From a virus, in IMG/VR virus record IMGVR_UViG_3300047551_000100, positions 1 through 31,225 of that record: a stretch of 31,225 nt of DNA. The stretch is one strand, 5' to 3'. The first letter of the stretch is position 1. Every line of letters begins with the position of its first letter. Shown here piece after piece: positions 3,039 to 31,225 of the stretch. Both the position numbers and the translations under genes were made by a program. The notes beneath the pieces are model-generated. The model saw nothing but the letters and a program-made list of their open reading frames with translations. It was not told the origin of the DNA and searched no databases.

Positions 3039-3566
3039 ATGAGTCTGGAAAATTACTCTCCCGAAGCAATTGAAGAGCTTGCTGCGCTCTCAAAACGTCT
3101 ATCGGAAGACCCAAAAACACGCAAATCCTTTCTGAAACTGGCAAAAGAGGTCAATCCTGACCTGCCTGTGCCGGAATTAGAAATGGAAGAGGTGGTCAAC
3201 CAGCGTGTTTCGGCTTCTGAGCAGCGTGTGGCTGATCTTGAGAAGCAGTTGCGTGCGCGTGAGGTGCGTGATGAACTCAATCGCCGCCGTAGCAAACTCA
3301 AAGAGAGTGGTTATGCTCAGTCTGATGATGACATTCTTGAAATTGAGAAACTGATGACCGACAAAGGTATTGCCAATCATGAAACTGCCGCTGATTACTG
3401 GCGTCACATGAAGCAATCGGCAGTACCGACACCCGGTTATCCACAACCCGTCATGTCTCGCATGGATGTGAAGGGTTATATGAAGAATCCGGTAGCTGCT
3501 GCGCGTGAAAACGCAGCGGCGGCTTTGGCTGAATTACGCAAGAATCCAAAGCCAATCGGTTTGTAA
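3039..3566 (+). CDS. Putative scaffolding protein
   Basis: A 175-residue, highly charged and mainly helical protein directly upstream of the major capsid gene. Residues about 48-85 form a coiled-coil-like stretch (VVNQRVSASEQRVADLEKQL, then charged repeats). The C-terminus is short and basic (AELRKNPKPIGL), as in scaffolds that dock on the capsid protein. Scaffolding proteins template procapsid assembly and leave before maturation. The call comes from composition, size and the conserved scaffold-then-capsid order; I recognise no sequence family. Its leader contains GGGGCTAATC before ATG 3039. Confidence 0.6.
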   Translation: MSLENYSPEAIEELAALSKRLSEDPKTRKSFLKLAKEVNPDLPVPELEMEEVVNQRVSASEQRVADLEKQLRAREVRDELNRRRSKLKESGYAQSDDDILEIEKLMTDKGIANHETAADYWRHMKQSAVPTPGYPQPVMSRMDVKGYMKNPVAAARENAAAALAELRKNPKPIGL

Positions 3567-6332: not shown

Positions 6333-8063
6333 ATGGCTGCGGCAGAGCAGAAAAAAAGTTACGCCGTAGTCAAAGACTTCAAAGGTCTTAACACCAAGAA
6401 CAACCGCACGGTGATTGGTGATGGCGAGTTTAGCTGGCTAGAGAACATCCAGCCCATTGGCTATGGCAACCTAAAAACAATCCCCGGCAACCAACAGCTT
6501 GCGAATGTTGCGTTTACTGCGAATGTTTCGTTTCTAGGCTCTGTCAACATCAGCAATAACGAGTATGTGCTGGCGTTTCAGAATGACGGTTCAGCACAGT
6601 ACGTCAACATTACGACAGGCGCTCAAGGCAACATAGCGCCAGCCAATACGTTCTCAAATGCTAACGTCATGGTGACGCAGTGGCGTAATGAACGTGCGCT
6701 GATTATTGATCCTAACAATGGCTACAAGACTTGGGATGGCACCAACCTTCATTCGATTGGCAGCATTAACTCTGTCACTATCAATAATGGCGGCAGCAAT
6801 TATTCTGCTTCCAACACAACCGTTACATTTGGTGCGCCCAACGAAGCCAACGGCGTGCAAGCCACTGGAACCGTCGTTGTAGTTGCCAATGCGGTATCTG
6901 AAGTCATTGTCACGGAAGCTGGCACAGGTTATACCTCTGCGCCCACTGTGACGATTTCTGGCGCAGGTGCTAATGCAAACGTGACCTGCACGATTTTGAA
7001 TCAAAGCGGTTCAGACATTGCAACCTTCTCAGGCCGCACTTGGATTTCTCAAGATCGGACGGTGTACTACAGCGCAACAGACACCTATAACGATTTTATT
7101 AACATTACTGCCGGGTTTATTACGTTAAGTGACGCAACGCTGCGTACTGTCATTACCCGCATTCTGTCTGCTAACAACTTCTTGTATGTGTTTGGCGAAG
7201 ACAGCATCAACGTCTTCTCGGATGTGCGGATTGACTCTACGCTTGGCACCACGTTGTTTACCAACACCAACGTATCTGCCTCGGTAGGTTCTAAGTTAAA
7301 GCACGCCATTTTTCCGTATTTCCGTTCAGTATTGTTTATGAACGAATATGGTGTCTATGCACTGGTTGGCGCTACAACGACTAAGATCAGCGATCCGTTA
7401 GACGGTATATTTCCGTTTATTAACTTTAATGAAGAGATTAGTGGCGGTCAGTGCTTAATCAATAATATTTTGTGCGCAGTTTATAACTTTAAGTTCAATG
7501 ACGATGGCACAGAGCGCTGGATTCAGGCGGCGTTCTTTGAGCGCAAGTGGTTCTTTACGAATCAATTAACTGATTGCTACTATGTGGTGCCTGCGTTTAA
7601 AGATGGTTTCTTAAATCTGTATGGCACGGCTGGTCAAAACCTATTTCAGTTCTATGAGGATGCGGCTAATCCAGTCGATATGATTGTGGAAACAGCCTTG
7701 TTGCCAATGGGTGATCCTATTCGTGACAAGCAGGCTTTGAAGATTGGTATTGAAGCAACGCTTGGCAATACGCCTATCGTGTTTGTTGCTTATGTTGATT
7801 CAGAAAACCAGCAATCTCCGGCAATTGATTTTTCTAACTCAATTACTTGGGTTAATAATGTAGGCACCGTGATCTCATGGAGCAATAATGCCAGTGCAAT
7901 TATTGGCTGGTCTAGCCCATCAAGCTCCGGCGCTGGTTATTATTTATACAAAAAAGATGCCAAGATGTTTGGCAAGTATTTGGGCATGACCCTAACAGGC
8001 AGTGTTACACCATTTACACTCAACGGTTTCGAGTTTGAGCATGAATTGAGAGCGAGGTTCTAA
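6333..8063 (+). CDS. Putative tail nozzle / packaged-DNA stabilisation-like protein
   Basis: A 576-residue, mostly beta protein following the adaptor, where podoviruses place the nozzle or stopper (P22 gp10 or T7 gp12-like role): closing the portal channel and carrying fibres. The N-terminus contains DFKGLNTKNNRTVIGDGEFS (about 13-32), a segment typical of these proteins, and the body alternates strands as in a beta-propeller. Between about residues 145 and 225 there are two copies of a Gly-rich repeat (NNGGSNYS... and EAGTGYTSAPTVTIS...), which look like an inserted small beta domain. It starts one base after the adaptor stop. Confidence 0.7.
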   Translation: MAAAEQKKSYAVVKDFKGLNTKNNRTVIGDGEFSWLENIQPIGYGNLKTIPGNQQLANVAFTANVSFLGSVNISNNEYVLAFQNDGSAQYVNITTGAQGNIAPANTFSNANVMVTQWRNERALIIDPNNGYKTWDGTNLHSIGSINSVTINNGGSNYSASNTTVTFGAPNEANGVQATGTVVVVANAVSEVIVTEAGTGYTSAPTVTISGAGANANVTCTILNQSGSDIATFSGRTWISQDRTVYYSATDTYNDFINITAGFITLSDATLRTVITRILSANNFLYVFGEDSINVFSDVRIDSTLGTTLFTNTNVSASVGSKLKHAIFPYFRSVLFMNEYGVYALVGATTTKISDPLDGIFPFINFNEEISGGQCLINNILCAVYNFKFNDDGTERWIQAAFFERKWFFTNQLTDCYYVVPAFKDGFLNLYGTAGQNLFQFYEDAANPVDMIVETALLPMGDPIRDKQALKIGIEATLGNTPIVFVAYVDSENQQSPAIDFSNSITWVNNVGTVISWSNNASAIIGWSSPSSSGAGYYLYKKDAKMFGKYLGMTLTGSVTPFTLNGFEFEHELRARF

Positions 8064-8756: not shown

Positions 8757-10405
8757 CAGGCATCCTACAAGCACTTTTGATGGGTTACGGCGCTGCCGGA
8801 GGTGGCGGCGGGGCGTTAACTATTATCGAAACCTTTAATGCCACTGGCACATGGACTTGTCCTGACGGTGTGACGCAGGTGGACTACCTTGTTGTCGCTG
8901 GTGGTGGTGGCGGTGGATACTTTGGTGGCGGCGGTGGTGCTGGTGGGTTTCGTACTGGTACTGCACTATCAGTAACAGCGGGAACAACATATACCGTCAC
9001 TGTTGGCGGTGGGGGCGCTGGAGCAACTGGTGGAGCAAGAGGCACAACTGGTTCAAATTCTGTATTTAGCACAATAACATCTAATGGTGGTGGTGGAGGC
9101 GGTAGTCATACAAGCTCACCAAACCATAATGGTGGGAATGGCGGTTCTGGTGGCGGTGCTGCTGCTTTAGGTGTTCCACCATATAACGGCGGCACAGGTG
9201 GAACAGGAAACACGCCATCAACATCTCCCTCCCAAGGCAACAACGGTGGCAATGGTGAGGGTTCTTCTCTTTATGGCTTAGGTGGTGGTGGTGGTGGGGC
9301 TACCGCTGCTGGCGCATCTGCTGTTCCAAATAACGCTGGTAATGGCGGCAATGGAACATCCTCATCAATTAGCGGCTCGTCTGTAACTTATGCGGGTGGT
9401 GGCGGTGGTGGGGCAGATAATCGCGCTCCGTCAACAACAGGCGGCACTGGTGGTACTGGCGGCGGCGGCGCAGGAGGTAATGGTGCTAGTGGGCAAGTTA
9501 ATGGAACCGCTGGAACAGCTAACACTGGTGGTGGTGGTGGTGGTGGGGCATATTACAACCCAACAGCAAGTTTTGGTAATGGCGGCGCAGGCGGCTCCGG
9601 TATCGTCATCATCAAGTATGCAGTACCAACAAGCAATGTACTCGTATTCAAAGGCTCATCTCAATGGACTTGCCCAACAGGTGTGACTAGCGTTGATTAT
9701 CTAGTCGTGGCTGGTGGTGGTGCGGGGGGAAATGGGATCGGCACAAGTAGTTCTGGTGGAGGTGGTGGTGCGGGTGGTTTTAAAACAGGCACAGGACTAT
9801 CTGTAACCGCTGGAACGACTTACACCATAACTGTAGGTGGCGGCGGCGCAGTTGGTGGAACAACGGCTAATGGTGGGGATGGAAGCAATTCTATTTTTAG
9901 CACTATTACATCTGATGGTGGCGGTGGAGGTGGCGGCAGTTCTGGAACCGGCAACGCTGGCAATCCAGGCGGTTCTGGCGGTGGTGGTGGTGGACGATCA
10001 GGAGCAGCGGGAAGTGGTTATGTTGGACAAGGGAAAGCTGGGGGTAATGCTGGTGGTATTACTGGATTTGATGCGTCTGGTGGTGGCGGGGGTGCTAGTG
10101 CTGTTGGTGGTATTGGAAGCAGCACATCTCCCTATAACGCTGGTAATGGTGGTGATGGAACAGCTTCTTCTATTTCAGGCTCATCTGTTTATTATGCCGG
10201 TGGCGGTGGTGGTGGCGCAGAAGATGTCACATCAAACTTTGGCTCTGGTGGTTTAGGAGGAGGTGGCAACGGTGCAGACGGTAACAGTCCATCAAGCGCT
10301 GGAACGGCAAATACAGGCGGTGGTGGTGGTGGTAGTAGCGAATCTGGAACTGGTAATCCAGCATCGGCTGGTGGCTCTGGTATCGTAATTATCAAACTCA
10401 ACTAA
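8753..10405 (+). CDS. Glycine-rich tail tip / adhesin-like protein with two tandem units
   Basis: The start is ATG 8753, which overlaps the previous TGA, giving 550 residues. Two homologous units follow each other. Each begins with WTCPxGVTxVDYLVVAGGG (Trp34 and Trp305, offset 271) and ends with GGSGIVIIK (about 281-289 and 540-548). Between these lie long polyglycine runs with loops. Glycine-rich domains of this kind form polyglycine-II sandwiches in phage adhesins such as the gp38 class and bind host surface receptors. The DNA is low-complexity GGTGGT-type sequence, which favours length changes by slippage or recombination. It probably determines host range, but no receptor can be inferred. 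Confidence 0.75.
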   Translation: MTGILQALLMGYGAAGGGGGALTIIETFNATGTWTCPDGVTQVDYLVVAGGGGGGYFGGGGGAGGFRTGTALSVTAGTTYTVTVGGGGAGATGGARGTTGSNSVFSTITSNGGGGGGSHTSSPNHNGGNGGSGGGAAALGVPPYNGGTGGTGNTPSTSPSQGNNGGNGEGSSLYGLGGGGGGATAAGASAVPNNAGNGGNGTSSSISGSSVTYAGGGGGGADNRAPSTTGGTGGTGGGGAGGNGASGQVNGTAGTANTGGGGGGGAYYNPTASFGNGGAGGSGIVIIKYAVPTSNVLVFKGSSQWTCPTGVTSVDYLVVAGGGAGGNGIGTSSSGGGGGAGGFKTGTGLSVTAGTTYTITVGGGGAVGGTTANGGDGSNSIFSTITSDGGGGGGGSSGTGNAGNPGGSGGGGGGRSGAAGSGYVGQGKAGGNAGGITGFDASGGGGGASAVGGIGSSTSPYNAGNGGDGTASSISGSSVYYAGGGGGGAEDVTSNFGSGGLGGGGNGADGNSPSSAGTANTGGGGGGSSESGTGNPASAGGSGIVIIKLN

Positions 10406-12934: not shown

Positions 12935-13278
12935 GCCTGAACATGGATGCGCTGGCTACCCCGATCTTTGGGGAGCCGGACAGCCTCCGCGATTTCTTAT
13001 TTGAAAACGGTATCCAACACCAAGTCTTTTGGGAAAGACTGACTGACGCTGGCTTCTATGTGCCACGCTACCCCATCATTGATGCTGACCCGCAAGACCT
13101 TGATGACTGGCTGTTAATACATCAACAAGAACACCAGTCCTACGCCACTATTCTTAACCTAAATGACCCCTTTAATCTGCTAGACTTGGATTTCAACCAA
13201 GAAGATGACTTTTACGATTGGGTAAACAGTCATTTGTTGATCCATGAGCAGATAGCACGAACACTGGGGGTGACATGA
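12931..13278 (+). CDS. Acidic hypothetical protein (115 aa) upstream of ACP
   Basis: An acidic 115-residue protein, rich in Asp, Leu, His and aromatic residues. It begins MSLNMDALATPIFGEPDSLR and has two similar segments about 59 residues apart: DPQDLDDWLLIHQQEHQSYA (about 54-73) and a later EDDFYDWVNSHLLIHEQIAR (about 91-110). This suggests an internal duplication of a helical hairpin with W-x(3-4)-L-L-I-H-x-Q/E. I do not recognise a family. ATGA overlaps on both sides tie it to the membrane-anchored coil protein before it and the ACP after it. Confidence 0.65.
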   Translation: MSLNMDALATPIFGEPDSLRDFLFENGIQHQVFWERLTDAGFYVPRYPIIDADPQDLDDWLLIHQQEHQSYATILNLNDPFNLLDLDFNQEDDFYDWVNSHLLIHEQIARTLGVT

Positions 13279-13568
13279 TTTCCGATGAAAACTTTTTGCG
13301 CCTGTTTAATGCGGCAATGGCGCTGGCAAAACCTGTCGGAAAACCGACAATTAACGCTGAAGAAATAGATGTACGCTTTGAAAATCTGGATGTTGATAGT
13401 CTGGATTTATTGATTATTGGAATGTATTTGTGTGACGCTTTTGATGTGCCTGAAGCTGTTGGCAAAGAAATGAAACCAGAAACGGTACGAGAAATGAAAG
13501 ACTTTCTGGTAAACAATACGCCAATGACATCTTTTGATGTGGAAGCTGCCTTGATGGTGGTGGTATGA
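13275..13568 (+). CDS. Acyl carrier protein (phage-encoded)
   Basis: A 97-residue protein with the hallmark of an ACP: the motif NLDVDSLDLLIIGMYLCDAF with Ser42 in D-S-L, the site where 4'-phosphopantetheine is attached. Acidic helix II follows, then the family's usual helix IV region (KPETVREMKDFLVNN). Carrier proteins hold growing acyl or peptidyl chains as thioesters for partner enzymes. About 14 residues beyond helix IV extend past the usual 75-80 aa ACP length. No phosphopantetheinyl transferase is visible in the window, so activation would need the host enzyme (AcpS-like). It overlaps the ketosynthase gene by ATGA, implying coupled production as partners. Confidence 0.85.
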   Translation: MISDENFLRLFNAAMALAKPVGKPTINAEEIDVRFENLDVDSLDLLIIGMYLCDAFDVPEAVGKEMKPETVREMKDFLVNNTPMTSFDVEAALMVVV

Positions 13569-14689
13569 GCCTATTCCTAACCTACGGGCATACCGTATCC
13601 AACCCTCAAACGACGCTGATGGAAGATATTTTGCACCCACAGCGTGTGCATTTCATACCGGAAAGCTATCAAGGTGCCAAACAAGGGTTCAAATACCCGC
13701 CGCATAACCTTGCCAACATGGTCATGGCACCAGCAACACTGGAATGGTTGCGGGGAAACCCGGCACTAGGCAAGACTGCCTTCATTCTGGCAGCAGGCAA
13801 TGCACATTTTGCTGGCATCAATCCACGCAAAAACCAAACGCACACGCAGTTGCACTATGAGTATAAGTTTCTGCCCTTTACGCTAACGCAAGTCATGGCT
13901 GGCAGGCTGGCAAATATGATCTGCCAACCAGATTACATAGCCACAGACTCCACTGCCTGCGCTTCTAGCCTGAAAGTCATGATGGACTGCCTGATGCTAG
14001 AAGCCTTTGGCTTTACCCGCTTCATCATCCTTTCCGTTGAAGACGCCGTATCCAATTCTGTATTGCAATTCTTTGGTGACTCTGGTGCCTGTTTAACTTT
14101 GGCTGAAGAGACTACCAAAGACATCGTGCCGAGCGCCTTTGATAGCAGAAATGGTGGGTTTTACGTCGGTCAGGGTGCTGTCTTTGCTGTTTTGCAAACA
14201 GAGGGCGAAGTCAACCACTATGGCCTGACTCCTAAAGCTAGGCTGGTGGGTGCCTACCATGCGGCAGAGAAGTGGAACAACGCCATAGGCCAAGCACCCG
14301 ATGGTAAAGGCTATGTGGATGCGATTGAAGGTGCGATGCGGTATGGGGAAGTTTTCCCTACTGACATCAAAATCGTGAAGACACACGGCACTGGCACGGA
14401 ATCCAATAATGTGTCGGAAAAGTTAGCATTGATGGATACTTTGAGTGACTTTGTGGCAACGTCATTTAAGCCAAAAATAGGTCACACAATGGGCGCTTCG
14501 GGCTTGCTTGAAACGCTACTTTTGCTTGACAATCTGGTTTATGGTGTTGTACCTGCTATTCCTAACCGCACAGAAAAAGACGATATTTTTCTGTCCGAGG
14601 ACTGCGAGACTCCTGATGGGCTGATCCTTAGTCTTGCCGCTGGAATGGGGAATGTGTATTCCGCAGCAATCTTTGACCCAGTGAGGTAA
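13565..14689 (+). CDS. Beta-ketoacyl-ACP synthase (thiolase-fold ketosynthase, phage-encoded)
   Basis: A 374-residue enzyme of the FabF/KAS class, which joins an acyl chain on a Cys to an ACP-bound malonyl unit. Catalytic residues are visible in the right order: Cys132 in STACASS, His274 in KTHGTGTE, Lys302 five residues before His307 in KPKIGHTMGASG. It is shorter than typical KAS II (about 410 aa), mainly at the N-terminus. The C-terminal GFGGTN loop that carries the gatekeeper Phe in FabF is replaced by LAAGMGN (357-363), so pocket shape or substrate should differ. It follows its ACP with ATGA overlap and lies among virion genes. Intact catalysis is likely; the product is unknown. Confidence 0.85.
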   Translation: MSLFLTYGHTVSNPQTTLMEDILHPQRVHFIPESYQGAKQGFKYPPHNLANMVMAPATLEWLRGNPALGKTAFILAAGNAHFAGINPRKNQTHTQLHYEYKFLPFTLTQVMAGRLANMICQPDYIATDSTACASSLKVMMDCLMLEAFGFTRFIILSVEDAVSNSVLQFFGDSGACLTLAEETTKDIVPSAFDSRNGGFYVGQGAVFAVLQTEGEVNHYGLTPKARLVGAYHAAEKWNNAIGQAPDGKGYVDAIEGAMRYGEVFPTDIKIVKTHGTGTESNNVSEKLALMDTLSDFVATSFKPKIGHTMGASGLLETLLLLDNLVYGVVPAIPNRTEKDDIFLSEDCETPDGLILSLAAGMGNVYSAAIFDPVR

Positions 14690-15141: not shown

Positions 15142-17420
15142 TGGGAGTCGTTGCTGATTTTGTTGGGGATGTTTTCGATGCGGTTGGCGATGTCGTAGAA
15201 GCTGTCGGTGATTTTGTCGAAGACGTTGTTGAAGCAGTTGGCGATGTCGTTGACTACGTTGTTGAGAATCCTGAGATTGTTGTCATTGCGATTGCTGCGC
15301 CTTATGCTGTCTCAGCAGTTGGTGGTGCGATAGGGGCAAGTCAAGCAGCCATTACTTTAGCTACACAGCCGATTACTGCCGCTGCTATTTCCGCATCACA
15401 AGGCGGTGACTTAGAAGACATTGGTAAAGCTGCGCTCGGTAGTTTTGCTGGCGCTCAAATTGGTGGCGCTGTCGCAAGTAAAGTTGGTGGCGCAATTGGC
15501 GCTCAAGGCGCAACAACGCCAATTCAAACTGCTTTAGCTAATGCTGCTGGCGGTGCTGCGGGTGGTGCCGCTGGTGCTGTGGCAGTTGGTGCTGATGTTG
15601 GTAAGTCAGCAATTACTGGCGCTTTAGGTTCTGCTGGAGCTTCTGTCGCACGTTCTTTGGCTGGTTCTGAACTTGGTATTGATCAAACAGGCAGAGCCGC
15701 AGAAGCTATTGCCGATGTTGGCGAGGCGGTTGGTCGCACTGCTGGTGGCGGTAATTTAGGTGAAGAACTATTGCAGGCAGGACTTTCTACAGTCACAAGA
15801 GAAGGTCGCGCTGCTACTAGAGACTTGCTAACGCCAACGGATGCTGACATCCAAAAAGAGATTAAAAAGGCTGCTGGCGTTGAAGAAACCAGTGTTGCTA
15901 GAGTTGAAGATGACATTACTAAAGCATTAACCGATCCAAACAACACAGTACAGGTTGCCTTCCAAGGGCCGGTTACGCCTGATGCTATCAACCAAATTGC
16001 ACGCAATGCCTCGCTTGACCTTATCGAAACTTGGAAAGCACGCGCTGCTGCTGATCCAAAGTTTTTAAAAGAGCTTGCACAGCCACAAAACCTACAAGCC
16101 ATGCGTGCTGCTGGCATGGTTGACTTAGCGGTGGCTGTTAGCGCAATGGCAGCATTACCTGCGGGTGGTGCTGGCGCAACTTTGTTTGCTGCTGGCGTCA
16201 CTGCAACTGAAGCGGCAAGAGCTTTGCGTAATGCGGTGCAAGAGAATGAAATGCTTGGCGGCGCTTCGCCTGACCTTGCTTTTGCTTCAGCGATTATTGA
16301 TGCGGCAACAAAACCTGTTGATCCAACTAGAGCAGTCACAGTTCGAGAAGAGAACAGATTGCCAGAGGTTGAAGTTACAGCAAAGATTGAGCCTGAACTT
16401 ACGCCAGAGCAATACAAATCAAGTGTGCAGCGCTACATTGGTGACTTTGCAGACCCAAGAAGCGCCGCTACGCCGGTTACTGTTGAAGTTGATCGTGTTG
16501 CGAAGATTCTCAACATCACAACAAAACAGGCCGCTGCACTTAAAAACTCTCCAATCTTTGACTATCTGAGCAATCCATCGCCAGATGCTAAGTCAATTGA
16601 TATTGAGACACTGCCGTTGCGTGAGCGTGCAATTCTTGAGTATGCAGCAGCCAACAATCAAGGTGGCGTTAGCCTGAATGAAGATTTCAACGTCATCATT
16701 CCGGGTAAAACGGCAACAGCGCCAACTACTCAGACTGCAAGAGCGACTCAGCGTTTCCCGCAAACGCAGACGCAAACACAAACGCAGACTAAAGCTGGCA
16801 CCCAAACTCAGACTGGTACGCAGACTGGCACCCGTACTCAAACTGGCACACAGACTATTGCTGGAACACAAACAGGTACGCAAACCGGCACTCAGACTGG
16901 TACTCAGACTGGTACTCAAACCGCAACTGACACTGGAACGCGCACACCACAAGATGCTGGAACTACACCAACATTAACGGGTGGTGATAACGCACCGGGT
17001 GGTCGCACACCAATCGTATCTGATCGCCCTGTTGATGAACTCACTGGTTCCGAATTGTTGCAAAGTGAGCGCGGCGTAATGGGCGAAGAGGGTGATCGCA
17101 CGCTGACGGAAGAGGGCGGCGAGGAAACTCAATTGGCAGAACAGCCGCTTGACTTGGATCAGATTGAACAAGACCTGATTGATTTGTTAAGCCAATCGTT
17201 CCCATTAACGCCAACTGAAGAAGGTTTTGAGCCATTGGATGTGCGTCCTGCAAGGGTTGGTAGAGCAGCGCCTAAGTCAATTAGCCCTCGCGTAGTTGGT
17301 ACTAGCCCGGTAGCTGCAATTGTTGGTGAGAAAGAACCGATCTTTGGTGGTGAACCTGATCCACAGCAAGATGTTTGGAACGTGCGTTCCCTGCGTCTTA
17401 GAAAGGCACTAGGACTCTGA
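15141..17420 (+). CDS. Large internal virion / DNA-ejection-type protein (759 aa)
   Basis: The N-terminus contains tandem heptad-like units rich in V, G, D, F (FVGDVFDAVGDVVEAVGDFV, residues about 6-25, continuing to about 40), which form an amphipathic helix. Next is a hydrophobic Ala/Gly/Val region (about 44-200) with several membrane-compatible stretches. Mid-protein is helical, residues 541-602 are a Thr-Gln repeat, and the C-terminus is acidic, ending SLRLRKALGL. Long, low-complexity, membrane-interacting proteins encoded after tail genes in podoviruses are usually internal virion proteins ejected into the host envelope. This role is inferred; no enzymatic domain seen. Confidence 0.6.
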   Translation: MGVVADFVGDVFDAVGDVVEAVGDFVEDVVEAVGDVVDYVVENPEIVVIAIAAPYAVSAVGGAIGASQAAITLATQPITAAAISASQGGDLEDIGKAALGSFAGAQIGGAVASKVGGAIGAQGATTPIQTALANAAGGAAGGAAGAVAVGADVGKSAITGALGSAGASVARSLAGSELGIDQTGRAAEAIADVGEAVGRTAGGGNLGEELLQAGLSTVTREGRAATRDLLTPTDADIQKEIKKAAGVEETSVARVEDDITKALTDPNNTVQVAFQGPVTPDAINQIARNASLDLIETWKARAAADPKFLKELAQPQNLQAMRAAGMVDLAVAVSAMAALPAGGAGATLFAAGVTATEAARALRNAVQENEMLGGASPDLAFASAIIDAATKPVDPTRAVTVREENRLPEVEVTAKIEPELTPEQYKSSVQRYIGDFADPRSAATPVTVEVDRVAKILNITTKQAAALKNSPIFDYLSNPSPDAKSIDIETLPLRERAILEYAAANNQGGVSLNEDFNVIIPGKTATAPTTQTARATQRFPQTQTQTQTQTKAGTQTQTGTQTGTRTQTGTQTIAGTQTGTQTGTQTGTQTGTQTATDTGTRTPQDAGTTPTLTGGDNAPGGRTPIVSDRPVDELTGSELLQSERGVMGEEGDRTLTEEGGEETQLAEQPLDLDQIEQDLIDLLSQSFPLTPTEEGFEPLDVRPARVGRAAPKSISPRVVGTSPVAAIVGEKEPIFGGEPDPQQDVWNVRSLRLRKALGL
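16761..16946 (+). repeat. In-frame Thr-Gln / GTQT coding repeat
   Basis: A minisatellite inside the 759-aa gene. A QT dipeptide run leads into a 12-base unit of the form GGTACTCAGACT, which encodes GTQT and recurs about ten times with third-base variation. The codon variation shows that it is not a recent slippage product, and it keeps frame throughout. It forms a flexible, uncharged linker of about 60 residues. Confidence 0.85.
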
Positions 17421-24687: not shown

Positions 24688-25196
24688 GTCATCAAGCGCA
24701 GTTGGATTTTGTAGCAAGTCTGCGGTTTAAGTTTCCTGAATATTTCATTCGCAAGAACGTGCTGGAGATAGGTAGCTTAAACATTAACGGTTCAATCAGA
24801 CCATTCTTTGAGCAATGCACCTATGTTGGGGTTGATCTTGGCGAGGGAGCCGACGTTGATGTGGTGGCTAAAGGTGAAGACCTCACCTATGCTGATGGTA
24901 CTTTTGACGTTGTGGCAAGTTGTGAGTGTTTTGAGCATAACCCTGAGTGGGTGGCGACACTAAAAAACATGATCAGGATGGCGTCAGGTTTGGTATTCTT
25001 TAGCTGTGCTACCACTGGACGCAAGGAACATGGCACACCACGCACTAGCCCTCATGATGCGCCATTCTGCGGTGACTATTACCGCAACTTGACTGAAGAA
25101 GATGTGCGGCAGGAAATAGATTTAAGCGTATTCAAAAGATATGAATTTATAAGTAATGATACGGTTCACGACTTATACTTTTGGGGGATCAAATGA
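24684..25196 (+). CDS. Class I SAM-dependent methyltransferase
   Basis: I choose ATG 24684 (ATGA overlap), giving 170 residues. Motif I is NVLEIGSLNINGSIRPFF, motif II ends in YVGVDLGEG (Asp for the SAM ribose), and the post-II region is DLTYADGTFDVVASCECFEH, as in Methyltransf_11-type enzymes. The substrate is unknown: no DPPY/NPPY motif, so it is not an adenine-N6 DNA methylase; small molecule, sugar or protein methylation is more likely. The last 60-80 bases become AT-rich towards the HNH gene that follows. Confidence 0.75.
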   Translation: MSHQAQLDFVASLRFKFPEYFIRKNVLEIGSLNINGSIRPFFEQCTYVGVDLGEGADVDVVAKGEDLTYADGTFDVVASCECFEHNPEWVATLKNMIRMASGLVFFSCATTGRKEHGTPRTSPHDAPFCGDYYRNLTEEDVRQEIDLSVFKRYEFISNDTVHDLYFWGIK

Positions 25197-25690
25197 AAGT
25201 TTGCTTCAAATGCAAAAATTCAAAACCTCTAAATTTGTTTTTTAAGCATAAGCAAACAGGCGACGGATACCATAGTTGGTGCAAAGATTGTTGTAAAGCA
25301 GGAAATAAAATATCAAGAGATAAAACAAATTCAACAATTGAGGGTAGAGCAAGAATTTTTTTGCGGAATGCAAAAAATAGTGCAATTAAAAGAAGTCAGG
25401 AATTTGAATTAACAATTAAAGACGTAGTAAACGCTTGGCAAGAGCAAGAACAAATTTGCGCCTATTCAGGCAGAGAAATGACTCTACGGCATGGTCAATT
25501 AAACACAGTGTCAATTGAAAGAATTGATAGCAAAATTGGTTACACTAAAAACAATACAATCTTAGTATGCCAAGCAATCAACAGGATGAAGTCTGATTTT
25601 TCTTTCGAAGAATTTTACGATTTGTGCAAGGATGTAGCTCAATTTCTTGGCGACGAAAACCTTAATCTTCAAGTAGGAGCATATAAATGA
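25193..25690 (+). CDS. HNH-type endonuclease with N-terminal zinc ribbon (AT-rich insert)
   Basis: Start ATG 25193 overlaps the methyltransferase stop; 165 residues. The N-terminus has VCFKCKNSKPLNLFF and SWCKDCCKAGNK, two CxxC pairs forming a zinc ribbon common in phage HNH proteins. The C-terminal half has CAYSGREMTLRHG, SIERIDSKIGYTKNNTILVC and AINRMKSDFSF, an HNH/recombination-endonuclease-like beta-beta-alpha arrangement, although a classic HNH histidine pair is not obvious. Base composition is strikingly AT-rich (17 G/C in 25201-25260), unlike neighbours, pointing to recent acquisition, probably a free-standing homing endonuclease. Confidence 0.7.
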   Translation: MKVCFKCKNSKPLNLFFKHKQTGDGYHSWCKDCCKAGNKISRDKTNSTIEGRARIFLRNAKNSAIKRSQEFELTIKDVVNAWQEQEQICAYSGREMTLRHGQLNTVSIERIDSKIGYTKNNTILVCQAINRMKSDFSFEEFYDLCKDVAQFLGDENLNLQVGAYK

Positions 25691-26706: not shown

Positions 26707-27039
26707 CTATGGCTGATGGGGGGTAAATTCGTTACCTAACAGAGTCAGCAAGTCTGGAAGTCGAAGCATGGCTAGGGATTTCCCGCCATCCTCGCGCATG
26801 ATCACAAGGGGTATTTGACCTATCTCGCAAGCCTTCTCTGCTTGCTCCATAAAATCATACACTGCAATCTTGCGTCTGCGTTTGCATTCAATGAGATATT
26901 TACCAAGGATCAAGTCACCTTCATCCGACACCTGATACTGCTTCAGGTTGCGGCGAATGCGTATGCCTAGCTGATCAAATATCGCATTGGCGACTTCACG
27001 TTCATAGCTTGCGCCACGCTGCCTGTTAAGTTTGCTCAT
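26707..27039 (-). CDS. Holliday-junction-resolvase-like PD-(D/E)XK nuclease
   Basis: A 110-residue small nuclease. The N-terminus RQRGASYEREVANAIFDQLG contains the conserved Arg and Glu14. The catalytic core is GDLIL...YLIECKRRRK with Asp42, Glu51 and Lys53, the D-x(n)-E-x-K arrangement of the Hjc/RusA-like phage resolvase group. Such enzymes cut branched DNA from recombination or before packaging. It lies downstream of exonuclease and annealing-type genes, so it completes a recombination set. No clear Shine-Dalgarno precedes the start, which is therefore less certain. Confidence 0.75.
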   Translation of the reverse strand: MSKLNRQRGASYEREVANAIFDQLGIRIRRNLKQYQVSDEGDLILGKYLIECKRRRKIAVYDFMEQAEKACEIGQIPLVIMREDGGKSLAMLRLPDLLTLLGNEFTPHQP

Positions 27040-27278: not shown

Positions 27279-27560
27279 TCAGAAGGGAATATCAGAATCA
27301 TCTTTCCGCTTGCTAGGAAACGGATTGACATTGCCGGGGCCGGTACTTTCAGGCGGCACCCAAGTATCTTCTTTGATCGAGATTAGCGCACCTCCTTTCG
27401 TGTCCTTAGTCCATGCTGCCAGCTTGATTGTGTCACCCGGAGCGTAGTGTTCAGATACCTTTAGTTCACCACGCCAGTCAGGACTACTTGCCGACTTCTT
27501 GTTACGGTTGCTCAGTAGTACCCCTGTACCCATCTTGCGTTCAATGTCTTGCCGATCCAT
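27279..27560 (-). CDS. SSB-like protein with DSDIPF tip (93 aa)
   Basis: A 93-residue protein with short strands (DWRGELKVSEHYAPGDTIKL about 28-47, LAAWTKDTKGGALISIKEDT about 47-66), a Pro/Gly linker (VPPESTGPGNVNPFPSKRK) and the C-terminal DDSDIPF. The last feature matches the acidic DDDIPF tip by which bacterial SSB recruits replication and repair proteins. It is smaller than typical SSB (about 150+ aa), so its DNA-binding part may be a reduced OB-fold. Neighbouring exonuclease, annealing-type and resolvase genes support a ssDNA role. AAGGAG precedes the start. Confidence 0.6.
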   Translation of the reverse strand: MDRQDIERKMGTGVLLSNRNKKSASSPDWRGELKVSEHYAPGDTIKLAAWTKDTKGGALISIKEDTWVPPESTGPGNVNPFPSKRKDDSDIPF

Positions 27561-27804
27561 GTTGCTTCTCCTTAACTAATGAATAACGTGCTATCTCTTT
27601 CTTCCCGACACGCACCGTTTGCGTCACGATAGTGTGTCCATCTTTCCTAAGTTCTTCAATGCGTGCCGCCAGCCGTAGCACGCCATACAGTCTTAGGCTA
27701 TCAAGGGCTGTAATGCCATCACCTTGCTGCAAGTGATCTAGGATCATGGCTGATTGCCCCTTGCCGCTGACTGGCTTCAACCCTTTTTTATCTGCTGATC
27801 GCAA
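27541..27804 (-). CDS. Winged-helix (HTH_39-like) DNA-binding protein
   Basis: An 87-residue protein with helix-turn-helix features: SAMILDHLQQGDGITALDSL (about 18-37), YGVLRLAARIEELRKDGHTI (about 40-59), then a wing TQTVRVGKKEIARYSLV. This matches the small HTH_39-type domain seen beside phage recombination genes. The start is uncertain: TTG at 27804 is one base after GGAGG; TTG at 27780 overlaps the preceding TGA; ATG at 27747 has GGGG upstream. The domain is intact from any of these. Probable regulator or DNA-binding accessory. Confidence 0.7.
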   Translation of the reverse strand: MRSADKKGLKPVSGKGQSAMILDHLQQGDGITALDSLRLYGVLRLAARIEELRKDGHTIVTQTVRVGKKEIARYSLVKEKQHGSARH

Positions 27805-28622
27805 GCCTCCTTTGCCTCTTTCACCCCTCTAGTCCATACCTCGAATAGCACTGGCTTATCAGCTTCAATCATGCCAAGCACAAAGTCATTCGCACTTTCT
27901 AGTGCTGTGATCTTTGCCAGCTTCTCAGCAGCGTTCAGCTTGGCGCTTGCCATGATGCTTGTCACCATATCCAAGTAGCCGTTGACAAACTCATCATCGT
28001 TGGCATGGTAGGCATAGGCTTCAGTCTTGCCCGGCACCATGAAAGCCACGCCTGTGGTGGGCTTGGGTGGTGGTGCAGGTACTTCGATAGGTGTCACTGG
28101 TTGTGGTGCCACTATCGGAGCTGTACGCGCTTCTGGGATGGTTTCAACTTCAGTCTCATCAAGCATTCCGAGTCCACAATGTGCAAGAACCGACCTGCGT
28201 ATCGCTTTCGTAGTCGCTTTAAGGATGGCATTAGCCAGTCTTTCGCCGACAAGGGTTGAGACATCCACTGCGCCTTGATTTTCTGAAACTCTACCGTCAG
28301 CGCCCGTGCATCGGACGGAGACAATGTAAATTCCATCCACACGTTCCCGATGCGTAATCTGAGTGGATAGCTTGTGGAGCGCACATAGCTGTTGAGTAGC
28401 GCTTGCGTTCGCGTAAAGGATTTGTTTTCCATTGAGGGTGAGCAAGTCAAAGGGTTTAGCGGCAGGATCAAGACCGACTTGTCGGCAGCGATACAAGTAA
28501 TACTCTTTCTTCTGATCCTCGTTCAGTCCTGACAAGTCACCACGCAACACAATGGATGATTGGATAGCAGGATCAAGTGCGACGATTGCTGACTCCCCTG
28601 CCATGTTGACTACGTTACTCAT
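27777..28622 (-). CDS. Putative phage recombination / single-strand annealing-type protein
   Basis: A 281-residue protein of a common phage type. The N-terminal domain contains YYLYRCRQVGLDPAAKPFDL (about 41-60) and LTLNGKQILYANASATQQLC (about 61-80), then ANAILKATTKAIRRSVLAHC (about 131-150) and GLGMLDETEVETIPEA (about 151-166). After this comes a Pro-rich linker (about 170-190) and a charged helical C-terminus. This type usually sits next to YqaJ exonucleases, like Red-beta/RecT partners, so an annealing role is likely by context. I cannot prove membership in a named annealase family. AAAGGGG precedes ATG 28622. Confidence 0.6.
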   Translation of the reverse strand: MSNVVNMAGESAIVALDPAIQSSIVLRGDLSGLNEDQKKEYYLYRCRQVGLDPAAKPFDLLTLNGKQILYANASATQQLCALHKLSTQITHRERVDGIYIVSVRCTGADGRVSENQGAVDVSTLVGERLANAILKATTKAIRRSVLAHCGLGMLDETEVETIPEARTAPIVAPQPVTPIEVPAPPPKPTTGVAFMVPGKTEAYAYHANDDEFVNGYLDMVTSIMASAKLNAAEKLAKITALESANDFVLGMIEADKPVLFEVWTRGVKEAKEACDQQIKKG

Positions 28623-28816: not shown

Positions 28817-29710
28817 TCACTTCAAAAGGAATCGACGGGAACCGGGTTGCTCGACCACAAACTTGTCATACATCTCTGGCATAGCGTTTTTAAACAAGTC
28901 TTTGGAAAAGGATTTAGTAGGCTTGCTGGCCTTCCAAGTGGCTAGGATTCGCCCATCATAGGTAGCTAGTTGGCTGGCTTCCATCATGTAGCCTTGCACT
29001 TTGGCAGCTAGGGCATCTTCTTGCGCTTCCAATGCCTTGCGCTGTTCTTTGACAACCTTCAGCATCTCGCAGATTTGCTCTAGTTCCTGATTGGCTAAGA
29101 GGCTATTGCCATTGTCTTGCTTGTACACAATCTTGGCAGCATCACCCATCGTTTCAGGGTCAAAGTTTTTAGCCTTGATGCGCCCCCAAAACTGTGCCAT
29201 TTCTCTGGCGTGTAAATCCCATTGTTCTTCTGAGAAATGCTGCGGGTAATGGCAGATTTCCTGACCGCCAAAGCAGACAACTAGCACCACGTTAGGGATA
29301 CGGTGGACTAAGGATTCATGCAGGCATTGAACACGGTAGCCAGTGTCAATGTCAGATGTACCATCGTCGCCATACTTCTTACGCTGGTGAATACCTAGAT
29401 TCTTGACCTCATAGAGTGTCTGCCCATCCTCTGAAATGTAATCAAAGTGGGAGGCAAGAAAGGTATGTTGCGGGTGATACAGGGAATAGTCAGCATCTTT
29501 GAAATTGATGCGTTGTCTGCGTGCAAACTCTTTCATGATGGGTTCTTGCATTACCAAACCCATTTGCACAGCTTCCACAGCGGATAAGTCATCTAACGGT
29601 TTAACGCCTATCTTCTCGGCGTACACCTCACCGGCTCTACCTTCAACAAACCGGCGTGCATCGTTAGACCATAGTGCGTTGTTACGCACTTCGGGTGAAA
29701 AGTCACTCAT
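28817..29710 (-). CDS. YqaJ-like / lambda-exonuclease-type recombination nuclease
   Basis: I choose ATG 29710 (MSDFSPEVRNNALWSNDARR) because GGGGCT lies upstream; a TTG at 29722 would place the ribosome site inside the gene. The 297-residue protein has PD-(D/E)XK nuclease features: Glu56 in GLVMQEP, Asp90 in ASHFDYIS, Glu101-x-Lys103 in TLYEVKNLG, and DTGYRVQCLHESLVH with Gln128. This is the YqaJ/lambda-Exo layout. The enzyme resects DNA ends to make 3' single strands for annealing proteins. A C-terminal coiled coil (about 205-240) and a small domain follow. Confidence 0.8.
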   Translation of the reverse strand: MSDFSPEVRNNALWSNDARRFVEGRAGEVYAEKIGVKPLDDLSAVEAVQMGLVMQEPIMKEFARRQRINFKDADYSLYHPQHTFLASHFDYISEDGQTLYEVKNLGIHQRKKYGDDGTSDIDTGYRVQCLHESLVHRIPNVVLVVCFGGQEICHYPQHFSEEQWDLHAREMAQFWGRIKAKNFDPETMGDAAKIVYKQDNGNSLLANQELEQICEMLKVVKEQRKALEAQEDALAAKVQGYMMEASQLATYDGRILATWKASKPTKSFSKDLFKNAMPEMYDKFVVEQPGSRRFLLK

Positions 29711-29722
29711 ATTTAGCCCCAA

Positions 29723-30564: not shown

Positions 30565-30750
30565 TTAGGCGTCTAGTTCTATCAGTTGGAAACGGCGCTC
30601 TTTCAAGCGTAGGACGGAAGCAGACAGGTGACGGACAGACTCTTTGGCACGGTCTAGTGCAGCTTGAGCAGCAGCTTCTTGCAAGCGAATACGGTCAATC
30701 AAGTCTGTGTCTTGACGAGGATCGTAATGATCCTGAAGGGTGTAAATCAT
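30565..30750 (-). CDS. First leftward early gene, small coiled-coil protein (61 aa)
   Basis: I choose ATG 30750 (MIYTLQDHYDPRQDTDLIDR) because GGGAGG lies 5-10 bases upstream; the longer in-frame ATG at 30858 would lie upstream of the promoter. After a short start, the protein is one long charged helix with Ala/Arg/Leu repeats (QEAAAQAALDRAKESVRHLS and on), probably a coiled coil. As the first gene after the early promoter it could be a regulator or host takeover factor, but there is no recognisable motif. Confidence 0.65.
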   Translation of the reverse strand: MIYTLQDHYDPRQDTDLIDRIRLQEAAAQAALDRAKESVRHLSASVLRLKERRFQLIELDA

Positions 30751-30798: not shown

Positions 30799-30827
30799 AC
30801 AATAGTTCACAGAATACACAAAGTCAA
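30799..30827 (-). promoter_or_regulatory. Leftward sigma70 promoter of the early/recombination module
   Basis: On the minus strand, TTGACT (30827-30822) and TATTGT (30804-30799) are separated by exactly 17 bases, a near-consensus sigma70 promoter. It points at the gene starting at 30750, leaving a leader of about 45 bases with GGGAGG. A 14-bp element (30834-30847) lies just upstream of the -35 box. Confidence 0.75.
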
Positions 30828-30833
30828 CAACTA

Positions 30834-31079
30834 TTTTGAGAGATAGAGTGAAAGGCATTTGACCCTGTGGATAAGTCTGTGGATAACTTGTTTGTTTCTT
30901 TTTGGCAAGTAGAACACCTATATAAATATATCTATACGTTTACTATAATCTAAGTAAACGTATAGCTATACGGTTACTACATATATACGGTTACTATAGC
31001 TATACGGTAACTATAGCTATAGGGGTTATTGGAATATTGATCTACGTGGGTCAGTTGTTCAAACATCTATCTCTCAAAA
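30834..31079. repeat. Perfect 14-bp inverted repeat pair bracketing DnaA boxes and iterons
   Basis: TTTTGAGAGATAGA at 30834-30847 is the exact reverse complement of TCTATCTCTCAAAA at 31066-31079. The left copy lies immediately upstream of the leftward promoter; the right copy is in mirror orientation and reads rightward. This suggests a shared operator or activator site for divergent promoters, or boundaries of an origin. Confidence 0.7.
30866..30886 (-). promoter_or_regulatory. Two perfect DnaA boxes
   Basis: TGTGGATAA occurs at 30866-30874 and again at 30878-30886. Each is the reverse complement of the consensus TTATCCACA. The two boxes are 12 bp apart (start to start) and lie next to an AT-rich iteron array, a combination seen in origins that recruit host DnaA. 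Confidence 0.8.
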
Positions 31080-31152
31080 CTTATAGGAAAAGTCGTTTAC
31101 TAAGACTATACGTTTACTTTCCTATACGGTTTCTAAATCTATACGGTTCCTA
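30932..31152. repeat. Phased iteron array, consensus CTATACGGTTACTA
   Basis: Near-identical 14-mers occur at 30932 (CTATACGTTTACTA), 30952-30965 (inverted), 30966, 30983, 31000, 31106, 31122 and 31139, with weaker ones at 31017 and 31089. Starts at 30966/30983/31000/31017 are 17 bp apart, and 31089/31106/31122/31139 are 17, 16 and 17 bp apart. Copies 1 and 2 form a perfect 13-bp inverted repeat around an 8-base spacer. The array is AT-rich and intergenic. It resembles Rep-binding iterons; repressor operators are the alternative. Confidence 0.8.
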
Positions 31153-31225
31153 TACATATAGGTAGGCGCGTGTCAATTTGGAAACATGAAATCTATTTTT
31201 TTTTGAAGATTCAAATGTCAAAGGA

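Follow-up and report, generated by a model that had tools for sequence, protein, structure and literature searches.

A DnaA-box and 17-bp repeat locus as the probable replication origin of a podovirus-like phage family

What is the function of an array of 17-bp repeats that lies beside DnaA boxes in an intergenic region of a podovirus-like phage? A preliminary description of this DNA took the regular spacing as typical of iterons bound by a Rep initiator, and considered either plasmid-like replication (a phage-plasmid) or an operator array for an early regulator. The window (the whole stretch of DNA analyzed, 31,225 bases) is an entire viral record rather than a complete genome, and it ends 73 bases past the array. 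Since the record stops just beyond the array, sequence past position 31225 was taken from relatives. Several contigs break near the array (the window at 31225, and the ends of L009, L010, L018, L026, L027, L033 and L045), a probable effect of repeats and strain variation on assembly. Coordinates of the features are collected in Table 1.

Table 1. Positions in the window of the repeat locus and of the operon beyond it.
Feature	Position	Strand	Remark
RusA-like/PDDEXK nuclease	26707..27039	-	profile scans
SSB, weak match	27279..27560	-	profile scan
Winged-helix protein HTH_39, candidate array binder	27541..27804	-	profile scans and fold search
Rad52-fold single-strand annealing protein	27777..28622	-	not an initiator
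RecE-like/YqaJ exonuclease	28817..29713	-	profile scans
61-aa protein, opening the operon beyond the array	30565..30750	-	conserved in the family; no Pfam match
Sigma70-like promoter TTGACT-N17-TATTGT	30799..30827	-	consensus match only; reads into early operon
Left arm TTTTGAGAGATAGA of perfect 14-bp inverted repeat	30834..30847	+	exact in 22/34 close relatives
DnaA box TTATCCACA, perfect	30866..30874	-	tandem pair kept in relatives
DnaA box TTATCCACA, perfect	30878..30886	-	12-bp pitch to the other box
Least stable 200-bp stretch, candidate unwinding region	30919..31118		nearest-neighbor energy
Array block 1	30932..31013	+	direct copies at 30932, 30966, 30983 and 31000, inverted copy at 30952-30965, all in 17-bp register
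13-bp inverted repeat, 8-nt loop	30932..30965		first copy and inverted copy
Right arm TCTATCTCTCAAAA of the same 14-bp inverted repeat	31066..31079	-	exact in 33/34 close relatives
Array block 2	31106..31152	+	direct copies at 31106, 31122 and 31139; steps 16 and 17

A motif scan of the window returned eight copies of CTATACGGTTACTA with two or fewer mismatches within 30932-31152, seven of them direct and one inverted, confirming the at least eight 14-mers in two blocks, spaced mostly by 16 to 17 bp, that had been described. Steps between direct copies are 34 bp (the inverted copy lying inside, in register), 17 and 17, followed by a 106-bp gap and then 16 and 17. The single match outside the array, at 1341, is at chance level; the expectation is 0.93 matches per whole window, and nine were reached in none of 100 shuffles. 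Tandem Repeats Finder reported period 17/34 at 30927-31021 and period 17 at 31123-31160. Across relatives, the ends of the repeat unit are most constant (CTATA-N7-TATAG, with TATAGCTATA at each junction) and the central seven bases are variable. Since the two ends of a unit are complementary to each other, the inverted copy keeps exact 17-bp register. Hits from an Rfam search were all below threshold, in TA-rich DNA, and attributable to chance.

Two perfect tandem DnaA boxes (TGTGGATAA, minus strand) were located at 30866-30886, 45 bp from the array; the boxes noted earlier beside the repeats are thus real, lying just outside the interval then quoted (30932-31152). One further perfect box, the third in the window, stands alone at 3437. 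Flanks of the boxes were inspected by eye for DnaA-trios, and a consistent trio run was not seen. A perfect 14-bp inverted repeat (30834, 31066) encloses the boxes together with array block 1. In each of the six genomes tested (the window and five complete or near-complete relatives), the 200-bp stretch of lowest stability is that of the array, and the ardC promoter region ranks second in all five of those relatives. A smaller CTATA cluster occurs at this other early promoter, before ardC.

The locus is intergenic, as had been stated. On one side is a terminator-like hairpin closing the ArdC antirestriction cluster, and on the other is the promoter-like TTGACT-N17-TATTGT site (both seen in the relative L006). 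The operon beyond this promoter encodes the 61-aa protein, a RecE-like exonuclease, a Rad52-fold annealase, a winged-helix protein, an SSB-like protein and a RusA-like nuclease. A 281-aa protein was considered as initiator and ruled out by its Rad52 fold. The ArdC cluster and the RecE-like operon share one direction of transcription, and the locus is therefore not a divergent operator region. From DnaA box to promoter the gap measures 38 bp in the window; among relatives whose TTGAC promoter is clear it ranges from 27 to 77 bp, and such a variable distance is unlike that of a phased activator site. Just upstream of the array, L006 carries at 9175-9378 a small phage zinc-binding protein (weak Phage_zn_bind_3 match) that is present in only five of the loci searched.

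Several genes elsewhere in the window are recorded here for their own interest. The product of 25181-25690 is an HNH/endonuclease VII-like protein with further matches to PHROGs families whose names are Srd anti-sigma factor and decoy of host sigma70. In the late/tail region, 13275-14689 is occupied by a beta-ketoacyl-synthase-like gene (Pfam Ketoacyl-synt_C), an unusual phage cargo; ketoacyl-synthase homologues are present in G004 and G008, and the small protein preceding it looks acyl-carrier-protein-like by eye, with no profile match. Tandem repeats with 12-36 bp units, threonine/glutamine-rich, lie at 16759-16939 inside a 759-aa late protein.

The array was compared in related phages, as had been suggested. 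Of 52 distinct relatives, 43 have tandem TTATCCACA boxes (pitch 10-12 or 21-23 bp, second box with no more than one mismatch) upstream of recE, and in 37 both boxes are perfect; shuffles gave 0/1040. The boxes persist at 41-46% RecE identity, where the repeats cease to align. Close relatives form three groups that share repeat ends and differ in the middle seven bases, and whole units are gained or lost (L017 is 34 bp, or two units, shorter than L015). In distant relatives the repeats differ in sequence and recur with a period of 17, 18 or 19. When array periodicity was compared with 300 shuffles in ten regions, nine of them, the window included, stood out: no shuffle matched in six and at most three did in the other three; L093 failed this comparison. 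DnaA boxes are more constant than the repeats, which turn over quickly.

There are exceptions to this arrangement. L093, L152 and L165 keep the boxes without a periodic array, and L165 and L184 have their TA-rich DNA on the opposite side. L008 keeps the array and has no DnaA box. The box pair is absent from L110, a complete record in which no initiator was found. In the clade of L092, L095, L265/L355 and L266/L358 both boxes and array are absent, yet again no initiator was found; this clade carries, next to ardC, a small DNA polymerase III beta-clamp-like gene (L265 1087-1734; L266 2571-3218) that matches Pfam DNA_pol3_beta_2 and whose top PHROGs family is labeled RusA-like.

Replication genes were sought in the window and in relatives. 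G002 has a 45-bp end repeat and was therefore taken as a complete circular map (35,992 bp after the end repeat). No initiator, helicase, primase or polymerase was recognized in the G002 gene list or in PHROGs/Pfam scans covering the window genes and the L006 genes missing from the window. In the pooled PHROGs scan of window genes, no initiator was among the matches listed (25 of 51 families). Family searches found Rep_3 in none of 17 records and DnaB in none of eight. A small initiator of unrecognized type in the phage is possible. A capsid search of genome contigs was tried as a route to the host and was set aside, as it returned only two metagenome contigs that both look misbinned. Cumulative GC skew, proposed earlier as a check, was calculated for five complete or near-complete genomes; it follows the direction of transcription and does not decide the origin.

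One variant bears on the role of the locus. In L048 (RecE 99% identical), boxes, array and ArdC are absent, and an O-like initiator, a primase zinc-ribbon protein and a DnaB-like helicase are there instead. The first 6.7 kb of L048 belong to a different, abundant phage lineage, and sequence from 7984 on to the array-bearing phage family; this helicase lineage is otherwise without any gene of the array-bearing family. A contig from another sample, L047, shares 136 bp with L048 at 7489-7624, beside the junction, at 99% identity. This match backs part of the L048 junction, and L048, being one contig, could still be partly chimeric; L047 makes a chimera less likely as the sole reason for this gene arrangement.

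Because replication genes are not recognizable and the arrangement is kept in relatives, the locus is probably an origin that borrows host machinery. Specifically, we consider it probable that a podovirus-like phage family relying on the host replisome starts replication here, with the array as unwinding region. Binding of host DnaA to the tandem boxes would nucleate strand opening in the adjoining AT-rich 17-bp array, which may in addition be a binding array, weak or co-regulated. The next step would be loading of DnaB helicase, DnaG primase and DNA polymerase III, all from the host; exonuclease, Rad52-like annealase, SSB and resolvase of the phage would then turn early theta copies into concatemers. 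An origin opened by DnaA accounts for the boxes, the low stability, the missing replication genes, the intergenic position and L048. The unit length of 17-19 bp is left unexplained by this reading.

Double-stranded DNA phages that are well studied mostly encode their own initiator, and a literature search found no description of such an arrangement of DnaA boxes and repeat array. Only tentatively do we advance a more specific version, in which the lineage has no initiator, helicase, primase or polymerase of its own and host DnaA alone starts replication at a phage-borne oriC mimic. The tandem boxes would be its fixed part and the fast-evolving 17-19 bp array its unwinding element, the whole being swappable for an O/primase/helicase module. 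If this is true, a common freshwater phage family would offer a natural minimal DnaA-driven origin, phage growth would be tied to host DnaA activity, and many independently evolved pairs of DnaA boxes and unwinding region would be available for comparison. From the L048 variant it seems that the origin element can be exchanged for a replication module of lambda type, and the reverse.

The strongest rival is an operator array, in which HTH_39, a 77-aa CI-like HTH protein or a host protein would bind the repeats and control the early operon promoter, with the DnaA boxes tuning transcription. Such regulation could coexist with origin function; as an explanation of the locus we think it unlikely. 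It fits the sigma70-like promoter downstream, the dyad symmetry of the unit ends CTATA-N7-TATAG, as expected for a dimeric HTH protein, the CTATA cluster at the ardC promoter and the presence of encoded HTH proteins. These proteins are not encoded adjacent to the array, and clear co-variation with the repeats was not seen. HTH_39, for which a fold search gave generic winged-helix matches only, was rejected as a co-evolving array binder as its recognition helix is nearly invariant while the repeats change. The helix of the 77-aa protein does vary, yet lineages A and C, whose repeats are the same, differ in this helix, and this candidate was likewise dropped. Some 100 bp separate the promoter from block 1, and about 280 bp from block 2; the distance from promoter to boxes differs by 50 bp among lineages. 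The three relatives with boxes and no periodic array also argue against an operator, which in addition leaves both L048 and the least-stable position unexplained.

Plasmid-type iterons bound by an unrecognized phage Rep initiator, with replication as a phage-plasmid, are improbable. Although small early genes without an assigned role exist, and the repeat length and adjoining DnaA boxes resemble the RK2, P1 and F origins (PMC4980987), the family searches for Rep_3 and DnaB were empty, no partition or maintenance genes were recognized, and capsid and array gave no meaningful plasmid matches. A Rep gene had been anticipated beyond 31225; sequence there in the relatives examined holds no Rep-like gene beside the array. 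Furthermore, centers spaced by 17 bp are not separated by whole helical turns. Of the original proposal of a replication locus, the origin is retained on the strength of the conserved boxes, the least stable DNA, the intergenic site and L048, and the Rep initiator and the phage-plasmid find no support. Quite improbable, too, is a DnaA-handling site, at which the boxes would titrate or reload host DnaA (like datA or DARS) while the origin lay elsewhere or replication was by recombination only. Each genome has just one to four boxes, a melting-prone array is their constant companion, and L048, which has an initiator set, is without the locus; these observations must be set against the tandem boxes of many other viral contigs and an exonuclease/Rad52 set that could support recombination-dependent replication. 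That the region is AT-rich simple-repeat DNA with no sequence-specific role is hardly credible: the rapid turnover of repeats between lineages would suit it, whereas the strict register with its in-phase inverted copy, a periodicity that beats shuffles, and conservation of the boxes and of the 14-bp inverted repeat would not.

Among known systems, likeness to SU10-like podoviruses is at profile level and concerns structural proteins only, the portal and adaptor of the window matching SU10 Pfam models. The iteron plasmid origins RK2 oriV, P1 oriR and F oriS are alike in having short direct repeats by DnaA boxes and AT-rich DNA. In those plasmids, iterons of 17 bp (RK2) or 19 bp (F and P1) are combined with DnaA boxes and the Rep protein is encoded (PMC4980987). 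The phage locus differs in having no recognized Rep gene (Reps that escape detection are possible) and in that its units abut at 17 bp, include an in-phase inverted copy and themselves form the least stable AT-rich DNA. The 17-bp spacing, taken at the outset as typical of Rep iterons, is unlike that of cooperative plasmid Rep iterons, since its steps are not whole helical turns. A lambda-type origin would be alike as a phage direct-repeat origin (O iterons) used with the host replisome. The lambda origin sits within the initiator gene O; here O or P was not recognized in the window or L006, and an O-like protein is present in the variant L048 only. Bacterial oriC and its basal unwinding system share pairs of perfect DnaA boxes in tandem, 2-3 bp apart, and adjoining melting-prone DNA, and judging from gene content the phage locus would, like oriC, need no initiator gene beyond host DnaA. 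It differs from oriC in being phage-borne and in having its repeat array on the 5' side of TTATCCACA. In bacterial origins, a tandem box pair with a gap of 3 bp or less is commonly found beside the opening site (PMC8287927). Pairs of the form TTATCCACA-N3-TTATCCACA occur in at least 119 viral stretches (including L111-L190), mostly without genes of the array-bearing phage family; use or regulation of host DnaA may therefore extend to many other phages.
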